A stretch of 29,654 bases of DNA from a virus, in IMG/VR virus record IMGVR_UViG_3300025164_000134, positions 1-29,654 of that record; one strand, written 5' to 3'. Both the position numbers and the translations under genes were made by a program. The notes below the pieces were generated by a model that worked only from the letters and a program-made list of their open reading frames with translations, did not search any database and had not been told where the DNA came from. Positions 13,768 through 26,014 of the stretch are shown here, piece by piece (the stretch's first letter is position 1; every line of letters begins with the position of its first letter).

Positions 13768-14429
13768 GTCCGAAATATGAAAACGTAAATGGCTCATGGC
13801 AAAAAGTCCAATACGACTATGAGACAAAGTATCTTGGCATAGTTGCGCGAAACGGGAAGTATTGTCGGCCAAGGGGATATAACGAATATCGTAAATATGA
13901 AGTAGTAAAAGTTACGGGTAATATGATACCGAACCCTACAATTGATCCATATGAGTTAAAGCATTATCCCACCATTCCAGAAAAGTTATATCTTACCGAA
14001 CAAGAGATAATTGATACGGTATTCACTACTAAAAACTCCTGGACTTCGGTACGTCACGAACAAGCTAGGTGTATGTTAAATACCGGATACGGCGGCCCGG
14101 TATCTAGTGGCGAAGTTAGGGTATTGAAACGGACATTTCAAGAGTTAGGACTAGCGGATAACTTCAGAAACGGCCATCTTCTCAAGAAAGTTAGAATTCC
14201 CGTGCATGGTTGGCGTAGAGGTTATACGTCTGAAAGACTACAAGCATGTTATCTTTTCAAGTCGCCGTTACCCAAAATACCATGGCAAAAATTCGTCGCA
14301 TTAGCCAGATTGTATAAGACTGACGAAGGCGGATTAAATCAAGCCATTAAGGCAATGCTAAATAATCCGAATGTAAAGGATGATTTAGATAGTCTTGATA
14401 CGCTTGAAATACTGTCGGAATTGAAATGA
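13764..14429 (+). CDS. Hypothetical protein in the MoxR-VWA operon (221 aa)
   Basis: 221 residues, rich in Tyr, Lys and Arg. The N-terminal third has strand-like segments and several Tyr (KYLGIVARNGKYCRPRGYNE). The C-terminal third is helical (LNQAIKAMLNNPNVKDDLDS). No catalytic motif seen and no family recognised. AAGG lies about 7 nt before the ATG. It is encoded between the ATPase and the VWA protein, with 4-nt overlaps on both sides, so it is co-expressed with them. Confidence 0.7.
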   Translation: MSPKYENVNGSWQKVQYDYETKYLGIVARNGKYCRPRGYNEYRKYEVVKVTGNMIPNPTIDPYELKHYPTIPEKLYLTEQEIIDTVFTTKNSWTSVRHEQARCMLNTGYGGPVSSGEVRVLKRTFQELGLADNFRNGHLLKKVRIPVHGWRRGYTSERLQACYLFKSPLPKIPWQKFVALARLYKTDEGGLNQAIKAMLNNPNVKDDLDSLDTLEILSELK

Positions 14430-14629
14430 GGCAAAGGATGGCACCGTTAGCGAAACGTATTGTAACTAGTGACGAATTGGCCGTTCTGGTACTAGCCGCA
14501 CCCGAAATTTGGCGTAGTGTTTGGCAGATACGGTACGAGTTTGTTCCTGGAACAATTTACTATAGTCCTGACAGTGACGTCTACCATTTTGGCAAATATG
14601 GTTGGGAAGTACTGAGGATTATCGAATGA
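14426..14629 (+). CDS. TxDE-motif small protein, paralogue 1 (67 aa)
   Basis: 67 residues. The core RIVTSDELAVLVLAAPEIW is closely shared with the proteins at 15815, 17809, 25633 and 25820. The distal half has GTIYYSPDS (compare GTIYHYRRE at 15815) and ends WEVLRIIE, matching the W-x3-[IV]-K ending of its relatives. The ATG overlaps the previous stop by 4 nt; a second ATG at 14438 also has a GAGG site. Function unknown. The family is described in the findings. Confidence 0.7.
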   Translation: MRQRMAPLAKRIVTSDELAVLVLAAPEIWRSVWQIRYEFVPGTIYYSPDSDVYHFGKYGWEVLRIIE

Positions 14630-15822
14630 ATAACTTCGCTAATTTGCCCGAATCCTTCCAAGCCGGTAGACTACGTCTATCACAGGATCACCCTTACTTA
14701 TCGTCAGTGTTATATAGGCTATTCCCAGTTGCTAAACCGGGCTTAGGTACAATGGCAGTTGACGAATGGTATAGGTTGTATTTTGACCCTAAGTGTGAAT
14801 GGACGCCGGCGCAATTTTCAACCGTCCTATATCACGAGGTAGGGCATTTACTTCGCGGACATTGCGATAGGGCAAAGATGTTTCAAGAATTGGATCACAA
14901 CGCATGGAATATATGTGCCGATGCCGAAATAAATGACGACATTCAAAGGGAAGGAAAAGCTACATGGCCGTTTCCGCCAGTATATCCTAAAGACTTAAAT
15001 CAGAAAGATGGATTGTTAGCTGAGGAGTATTACGCTAACTTGCCGAACGTAGCCATTACAATCACTTCCCCAGGTCCGGGAAGAGGTAAATGTGGATCAT
15101 GTTCAGGTAATCCCATTGACGGGGAATTGCCCGGGCCGTCGGGAAAAGACGGCGAAATTCCGGGAGTTACGCCCGTAGAACGTGACCTTATCGCGCATAG
15201 GGTAGCACAGGATGTAAAAGAACACGTTAAAAGCCGAGGTAACGTCCCCGGATGGTTGCAAAGATGGGCAGAGGATGTATTAAATCCCAAAGTAGACTGG
15301 CGTAAGGTGTTAGCTGGAATGGTAAAACATTATATGGCAGACGTGGCGGGGATGGTAGACTTTAGCTATCGGCGTCCATCTAGGCGTCAAATACCTAATG
15401 TTATACTTCCGTCGCTTCGTCGGCCAATTCCACAGATTGCAATGGTTCTCGATACCTCGGGGTCAATGTCCGAACAGGATTTAACGGATTCGTTGGCGGA
15501 AGTTAAGGGAGTTTTGCGAGGGACGGGTTGTGCGGACGTTGACGCTATTATCGCGGACGCGGACGTAAAATCGTCTAAACGTGTGAGAAGTGCAAGTCAG
15601 ATTAGCTTGACCGGTGGCGGCGGAACGGATATGCGCGTGGGAATAGACTACGCGCTTAAACGCCAACCGCGCCCTCATGTGATTATCGTGTTGACGGATG
15701 GGTATACACCGTGGCCGGATAATCCCATAGGTGTTAAGGTAATTGCCGCGATTGTAGGGAAGAATGCTAGGGATGTAAAGGGCGTACCCAATTGGATAAG
15801 GCGAGTGAATGTAGATGATTAA
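14626..15822 (+). CDS. Metallopeptidase-VWA protein (DUF2201-like), MoxR partner
   Basis: 398 residues from the ATG overlapping the previous stop (ATGA). The N-terminal domain has the zinc-protease motif HEVGHLLRGH at 70-79, then a helical region with NAWNICADAEIND, as in the putative metallopeptidase part of DUF2201 proteins. The C-terminal third is a VWA fold with a MIDAS: DTSGSMS near 270, then a GGGTDM and a VLTDGYTPW segment. Such proteins pair with MoxR-type ATPases, and one is encoded just upstream. Whether the protease site is active, and on which host or phage targets, cannot be told from sequence. Confidence 0.87.
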   Translation: MNNFANLPESFQAGRLRLSQDHPYLSSVLYRLFPVAKPGLGTMAVDEWYRLYFDPKCEWTPAQFSTVLYHEVGHLLRGHCDRAKMFQELDHNAWNICADAEINDDIQREGKATWPFPPVYPKDLNQKDGLLAEEYYANLPNVAITITSPGPGRGKCGSCSGNPIDGELPGPSGKDGEIPGVTPVERDLIAHRVAQDVKEHVKSRGNVPGWLQRWAEDVLNPKVDWRKVLAGMVKHYMADVAGMVDFSYRRPSRRQIPNVILPSLRRPIPQIAMVLDTSGSMSEQDLTDSLAEVKGVLRGTGCADVDAIIADADVKSSKRVRSASQISLTGGGGTDMRVGIDYALKRQPRPHVIIVLTDGYTPWPDNPIGVKVIAAIVGKNARDVKGVPNWIRRVNVDD

Positions 15823-16051
15823 CACCGGAAGACGGGACTTTAACTCCCACAAAATTTATAACATAACAAGCGAGGAATTGGTATTACTTACATTAGCCGC
15901 ACCTGCAATAGTCTTTGACGAGAATGACAGTAATAATATGGACTACGAAATAGGGACCATTTATCACTATAGACGCGAAGCCGAAATTTTCCAACGTACC
16001 AATACGGCAGGAAGTAACAGATGGTTTCAGTTGATAATTAAAAATGACTAA
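15815..16051 (+). CDS. TxDE-motif small protein, paralogue 2 (78 aa)
   Basis: 78 residues. The core YNITSEELVLLTLAAPAIV matches the copies at 14426 and 17809. The later part has GTIYHYRRE and ends WFQLIIKND, nearly the ending of paralogue 3 (WERLVIKND). It overlaps the VWA gene by 8 nt and the next CX2C gene by 8 nt. The DNA across its stop is part of a 19-nt sequence also found at 18011-18029. Function unknown. Confidence 0.7.
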   Translation: MINTGRRDFNSHKIYNITSEELVLLTLAAPAIVFDENDSNNMDYEIGTIYHYRREAEIFQRTNTAGSNRWFQLIIKND

Positions 16052-25631: not shown

Positions 25632-25632
25632 G

Positions 25633-25830
25633 ATGGGTCGTGCGGACCCTTACGTGAAAATGGGATTTGTGCGGAATGAAAAAGAATTAGAGCGTTTTTC
25701 TGGCTATACCCATTACGTAACATCTGACGAGTATACGTTAATGGTGTTAGGCGATAGGATTGGTTGGTTTCGTCGATGGCCGTATTGTAAGGATGATGAG
25801 TGGTGGGTGGTTATAAAAGATGGAACATAA
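25633..25830 (+). CDS. TxDE-motif small protein, paralogue 4 (65 aa)
   Basis: 65 residues from the ATG at 25633, 1 nt after the polymerase stop, so translation is probably coupled. The core HYVTSDEYTLMVLGDRIGW and ending WWVVIKDGT match the family; the usual LAAP is replaced by LGDR. It overlaps the next paralogue by 11 nt. Function unknown. Confidence 0.68.
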   Translation: MGRADPYVKMGFVRNEKELERFSGYTHYVTSDEYTLMVLGDRIGWFRRWPYCKDDEWWVVIKDGT

Positions 25831-26014
25831 AAGCCTTACGAACCTTAGAGAATCTCTAGCCGATCTGTTTTGGTCCTCGGGAAACTCCAAATTCGTAACA
25901 GAAGACGAGTATATTTTATTGGTACTGGCCGGCGAAATAACAACGGCGTCAGATGATTATCCGCCCGCGCAAATGTCCGAGAATAAATGGATTTTTATAA
26001 AGGATGCCACATGA
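25820..26014 (+). CDS. TxDE-motif small protein, paralogue 5 (64 aa)
   Basis: 64 residues. The core KFVTEDEYILLVLAGEITTA and the ending KWIFIKDAT match paralogue 4 and the other family members. It is encoded in tandem with paralogue 4, overlapping by 11 nt, and its own end overlaps the phosphoesterase by 4 nt. Function unknown. Confidence 0.68.
   Translation: MEHKSLTNLRESLADLFWSSGNSKFVTEDEYILLVLAGEITTASDDYPPAQMSENKWIFIKDAT

Follow-up and report, generated by a model that had tools for sequence, protein, structure and literature searches.

Small phage homologues of TraR act on host RNA polymerase, members of the TraR/DksA family are defined by a DxxDxA motif located at the tip of the helix, and some DksA proteins have no zinc finger (PMC9239242). 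The proteins that we describe here resemble TraR/DksA proteins such as Orf73 of phage lambda and Orf82 of phage P2 in being small phage proteins in which an acidic N-terminal helix is usually followed by a putative C4 zinc finger; however, they differ from these proteins in having a short helix, a different CxxC spacing, and many copies per genome. A second likeness is to the zinc domain of DnaJ (PF00684), which is matched by two of 18 zinc-type members with a best E of 2.3e-4, and CxxCxGxG-like repeats are visible in two proteins of the window (18020 and 18263); this likeness concerns only the cysteine pattern, and the family lacks a J domain and has one short helix in front. Similarly, the C4 zinc fingers of uS14 and MDM2 in the PDB match the zinc profile weakly (E 0.007 and worse) and only in the cysteine pattern. 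In terms of gene organization, large DNA viruses have multigene families in which several divergent copies of a small gene occupy fixed loci and turn over in copy number. These families are an analogy only, as their proteins and hosts differ from those of the phage family. Among phages, it is rare for one small gene to be retained in many divergent copies.

Here, we present a computational analysis of such a gene set in a viral record that is 29,654 bases long, referred to as the window, and probably represents a fragment. A previous sequence-only reading had described five dispersed paralogues. We found that these five genes are related, as proposed, but that the description understated the family, of which they form the Cys-less branch beside a larger number of proteins that combine the same helix with a zinc finger.

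Cys-less and zinc-type members in the window

All five reported ORFs, with the cores quoted for them, are present on the plus strand (Table 1). Compared with shuffled sequences, 14426, 15815, and 17809 (LAAP type) are similar to each other with z values of 8.5-14 and 25633 and 25820 (EY type) with a z value of 10, all above chance, while the similarity between the two sets is weak to moderate (z 1.7-5.7). The five are therefore not equal copies; rather, they comprise three LAAP-type and two EY-type members. There is a 4-nt overlap between the start of 14426 and the stop before it, and 25633 has an alternative in-frame ATG at 25540 that gives a longer ORF.

More importantly, four proteins of the CxxC...CxxC type (16044, 22485, 22790, and 23002) have the same N-terminal core as the five, and their mutual z values are 11-19. 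Three additional proteins (16988, 18020, and 18263) form a subgroup of their own (z 5-22) with a looser start (ILSG, TLSG, or VLEG) followed by CxxC. Altogether, nine copies are clear, and the window may have as many as twelve over about 11.6 kb. Adjoining family members, we also noticed an apparently conserved paired-cysteine protein (NPFCNKPLPK...FFCGEYC; 16259-16543 in the window and about 3446-3625 in the relative L033), which is without the helix module.

In leave-one-out tests with HMM profiles of the 15-residue core against the 504 six-frame ORFs of the window, all nine clear members outranked every non-family ORF; E values of the members ranged from 3e-7 to 0.1, compared with 0.4-1.4 for the best non-family ORF. 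A profile from the five Cys-less members alone placed three of the four zinc-type members at ranks 6-8 of 504. Conversely, the sequences that came next after the four zinc-type members in a search with their own profile were 17809, 25633, and 25820. Based on profile-profile comparison using hhalign, the Cys-less and zinc alignments match with P = 1.3e-4, over 13 columns only. These comparisons support that the five reported genes are the cysteine-free branch of a larger, expanded family.

Table 1. Members of the small-protein family and associated DNA repeats in the window
Feature	Position	Strand	Remarks
Cys-less member, LAAP type	14426..14629	+	67 aa; between 221-aa ORF and vWA gene
Module DNA repeat	14463..14508	+	Again at 15864-15909; 46 nt, 72%
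Cys-less member, LAAP type	15815..16051	+	78 aa; 3' of vWA gene; end codons overlap 16044 start
C-terminal/junction DNA repeat	16017..16056	+	Again at 17993-18032; 40 nt, 78%
Zinc-type member	16044..16262	+	Core LTDDDITLWVLAGKPCVHC
Looser zinc member	16988..17167	+	AILSGAEKCKNC...CLAC; start GTG 16988 or ATG 16991
Cys-less member, LAAP type	17809..18027	+	72 aa; end codons overlap 18020 start; predicted beta-alpha-beta4
Looser zinc member	18020..18259	+	DnaJ-like CxxCxGxG repeats
Looser zinc member	18263..18535	+	Tandem relative of 18020, z 22
Zinc-type member	22485..22655	+	Core DMDIYTLWVLADSPCIHC
Zinc-member module DNA repeat	22545..22585	+	Again at 22820-22860; 41 nt, 73%
Zinc-type member	22790..23020	+	Core NDDDLALWLLAGRPCIHC
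Zinc-type member	23002..23235	+	Core TSDDIALWILAGTPCVVC; TTG start probable; 19-nt overlap with 22790; abuts DNA polymerase
Cys-less member, EY type	25633..25830	+	65 aa; immediately 3' of DNA polymerase
Module DNA repeat	25709..25745	+	Again at 25887-25923; 37 nt, 76%
Cys-less member, EY type	25820..26014	+	64 aa; 5' of metallophosphoesterase gene; tandem relative of 25633

A common helix core and two types of body

The core derived from 15 modules is T-x-[DE]-[DE]-Φ-[AT]-L-Φ-[VI]-L-A-[GA], in which the T is present in 11 of 15 modules, the acidic residue at position 3 and the L at position 10 in all 15, and the A at position 11 in 14. As judged by leave-one-out comparison, nine window members are small proteins with this core in their N-terminal half. 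From its sequence, the core reads as a single helix that begins with a capping box and terminates in glycine. Family proteins mostly have about 55-90 aa, and the conserved part comprises about 12 residues only.

The AlphaFold2 model of the Cys-less protein 17809 (pLDDT 74, pTM 0.60) has a helix at the core (residues 15-24) inside a beta-alpha-beta4 arrangement, and that of the zinc-type protein 23002 (pLDDT 66) has a helix at the core (residues 9-18) followed by two CxxC pairs and a second helix. Fold searches with these two models gave no significant structural match; for the Cys-less model, there was no significant match in the PDB, and Tad2 was not among the matches listed. Ribonuclease Sa2, the best partner in VIA-align (Z 4.6, rmsd 3.6 over 62 residues), was rejected, as its score is too low to indicate more than a common arrangement. 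Most zinc members have a C4 pattern (CxxC-x9-25-CxxC), which is present in none of the five Cys-less proteins; the spacing is mostly 9-13 or 21-25, and 17, i.e., the value in TraR, in two members. The first zinc cysteine is usually at residue 18-36, leaving room for only a short helix before it.

Gene junctions and DNA repeats

All copies in the window sit among DNA-replication genes. Their neighbours encode a MoxR-type ATPase, a DUF2201 vWA/metallopeptidase-like protein, GP88, a PD-(D/E)XK nuclease, a Sak4-like annealing protein, the DNA polymerase, a metallophosphoesterase (assigned by reading), and, on the opposite strand, a RepA-like ATPase. Most family genes overlap a neighbour by 1-19 nt. 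The C-terminal motif W-x3-[IV]-K-[ND] that had been ascribed to most of the five proteins is present in four of them, while 14426 ends in VLRIIE; moreover, part of the motif overlaps the start signal of the next gene, with the K-[ND] codons lying within or beside this signal. The sequence ATWAAARATG encodes K-[ND], and in three of five cases its ATG is the start of the next gene. It occurs five times in the window, compared with 0.5 expected, and three of these occurrences lie exactly at family junctions. To some extent at least, this part of the motif therefore reflects a signal at the gene junction.

Both regions that bear family genes have, as their two longest direct repeats, DNA of the module or of the C-terminal junction (37-46 nt, 72-78%). 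The repeat at 16017 holds ATTAAAAATG, where the next gene starts within the overlap. That the longest direct repeats are module or junction DNA argues for duplication rather than convergence. Tandem pairs within one phage are 18020/18263 and 25633/25820 in the window and 5008/5238 in L033.

The DNA polymerase gene of the window (23235-25631) is continuous, unlike those of the relatives L004 and L005, which are split at one site after DWRGF or EWRGF, at the end of the UDG-like part. The split contains a gap with an HNH-like ORF in L004 (10435-11011) and a short gap in L005 (10444-10572); an Rfam search found no intron.

Relatives and distribution

Relatives were gathered by DNA polymerase searches. 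Polymerase identity to the window is about 60% for L004, 56% for L033, and 37-44% for more distant phages; L032, L034, and L035 are contigs near-identical to L033. L004 has six copies, i.e., five on the zinc side, two of which have altered first cysteine pairs, and one Cys-less, and L033 has eight, i.e., six zinc members and two more at the other end of the record. One copy at the far end of the L033 record matches 23002 with a z value of 18. These numbers, together with the nine to twelve copies in the window, bear out the remark that the set is unusual for a phage. The copies often recur in the same slots: before and after the vWA gene, after a 175-aa ORF, before the DNA polymerase gene, and in the interval between the DNA polymerase and metallophosphoesterase genes. 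These slots are common to three phages, and the number of copies per slot is not constant. Using a profile from the window only, the best match in L004 was the copy between the DNA polymerase and metallophosphoesterase genes and that in L033 was the copy immediately 5' of the DNA polymerase gene. Small ORFs with LAG..CxxC numbered 7, 3, and 7 in the regions of the three phages, of which one in the final 7 is probably a chance occurrence, compared with 0.2-0.7 expected from Markov shuffles. The phages bearing the protein core span 47-62% GC, and the zinc cysteines are retained.

Strain comparisons of near-identical contigs revealed at most one change in family genes. In the comparison of the window with its near-identical contig L007, the differences cluster at 7051-8597, where the virion-side genes 7051 and 7593 hold 15 of 17 coding changes and three gap codons. 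Between L033 and L035, a single gene of 185 codons (3622-4176 in L033) has 28 synonymous and four nonsynonymous changes, whereas the family genes next to it hardly differ; this pattern suggests a recombined segment. In L004, the frame of the Cys-less copy (12998-13315) stays open for about 130 nt beyond the point where the next gene starts, and another frame stops exactly at that start; the contig may have a frame break here.

Five more distant phages had no believable match to a ten-sequence zinc profile, the weak matches in two of them being at chance level. Among 2.9 million IMG/VR contigs, the pattern T-x-[DE]-[DE]-x-[AT]-L-x-[IV]-[LF]-A-G matched 14 stretches; family members were confined to the L004 contig, with three matches on two stretches, and a scan for the LAAP form matched solely a contig 99.75% identical to this phage. 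Zinc-type patterns gave no match in viral contigs and five chance matches in genomes, and tblastn against 50,697 phage records gave no believable match. A search of representative bacterial genomes with one exact pattern found no family member. The sensitivity of these scans to diverged forms is limited. The five ORFs had no convincing match in Pfam, PHROGs, NCBIfam, or PADLOC, and we found no description of such a family in the literature. These libraries miss the family because its conserved stretch comprises only about 12 residues. Among the sequences searched, the family thus appears confined to this lineage. The view that the five belong to no named family is upheld by these scans and the fold searches; we found neither a lack of similarity among the five nor a known family matched by all of them.

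Discussion

The small-protein family described here is new, while lineage-specific expansion of a gene family is in itself a known phenomenon. We infer docking, targets, and function of these proteins from a two-part architecture. One part is the constant helix, in which an N-capping Thr or Ser and a pair of acidic residues precede one and a half strongly hydrophobic turns and a final L-A-G/A. The other part is a variable small body, usually a putative C4 zinc finger and, in the five reported proteins, a cysteine-free predicted small beta-sheet. The genes have arisen by duplication, with turnover of copies at a small number of fixed junctions among the replication genes, to which most of them are translationally coupled. 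Because the helix is almost wholly hydrophobic and constant while the bodies differ, it may dock on a common partner or oligomerize; the variable body would contact a host protein or the phage replication machinery, and the set would act as small adaptors or inhibitors produced together with the replication genes. We favour this model of small host- or replication-directed adaptors, albeit tentatively and at somewhat less than even confidence. The structure models have modest confidence and no significant match, the link between the two branches depends on 13 columns, and 16988, 18020, and 18263 could instead represent a DnaJ-like zinc group.

Several other explanations have to be considered. 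All window copies lie among replication genes, most of them overlapping a neighbour, and the junction slots are common to three phages, as expected if the proteins were accessory subunits of the phage replication/recombination machine (DNA polymerase, Sak4-like recombinase, SSB-like protein, and the MoxR/vWA pair) tethered by the helix to one replisome protein. However, copy number and sequence vary strongly between phages whose polymerases are 56-61% identical, and the five more distant phages have the same replication genes without copies; accordingly, we regard this explanation as fairly unlikely. The overlaps of 1-19 nt and the excess of ATWAAARATG could also indicate that the genes are largely cis-acting or neutral, i.e., duplicated small ORFs retained for translational coupling and spacing of replication genes. 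Coupling would not need a protein core and zinc cysteines that are conserved across phages of 47-62% GC, making this explanation improbable.

The acidic start of the helix, the C4 zinc finger, and the precedents of TraR homologues and zinc-free DksA proteins (PMC9239242) would fit miniature TraR/DksA-like regulators of host RNA polymerase, with the Cys-less branch comparable to DksA homologues without a zinc finger. We consider this unlikely: membership in TraR/DksA failed on both profile and motif, with no match to PF01258 among 18 zinc members at E≤1 and DxxDxA absent from all members, and in addition the CxxC spacing is mostly not 17 and the helix is short. For the Cys-less five, a relationship to the Tad2-like (DUF2829) nucleotide-sponge family, which has a beta-alpha-beta sheet and a conserved W near the C-terminus, is very improbable. 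The predicted beta-alpha-beta4 arrangement with W-x3-[IV] in the final strand possibly resembles the Tad2 fold; by contrast, membership failed the profile test, with no match to PF11195 in the window, L004, L033, or L005 even at E≤10 and none with the six Cys-less members.

The sequence-only reading suggested effectors aimed at different host proteins, which would fit the constant helix, the variable bodies, and the varying copy number in the same slots. Its other suggestion, dosage-dependent regulators, has a lower likelihood, since the bodies did not stay similar but diverged. In a stronger version of the effector idea, a constant docking helix and interchangeable bodies, up to a dozen per genome, would form a combinatorial set that redirects one hub protein to different host targets; we think that this version is rather unlikely. 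Within the adaptor model, the turnover of copies at fixed slots would be consistent with adaptation to hosts, and the coupling to replication genes with early production. Altogether, the family has the appearance of a set of helper proteins that evolved within the lineage itself and are directed at the host or at replication. Our findings illustrate that small phage ORFs of "unknown" function can belong to one family that standard libraries overlook. Moreover, with nine to twelve members among the replication genes of one uncultivated lineage, the common helix makes identification of the partner testable.
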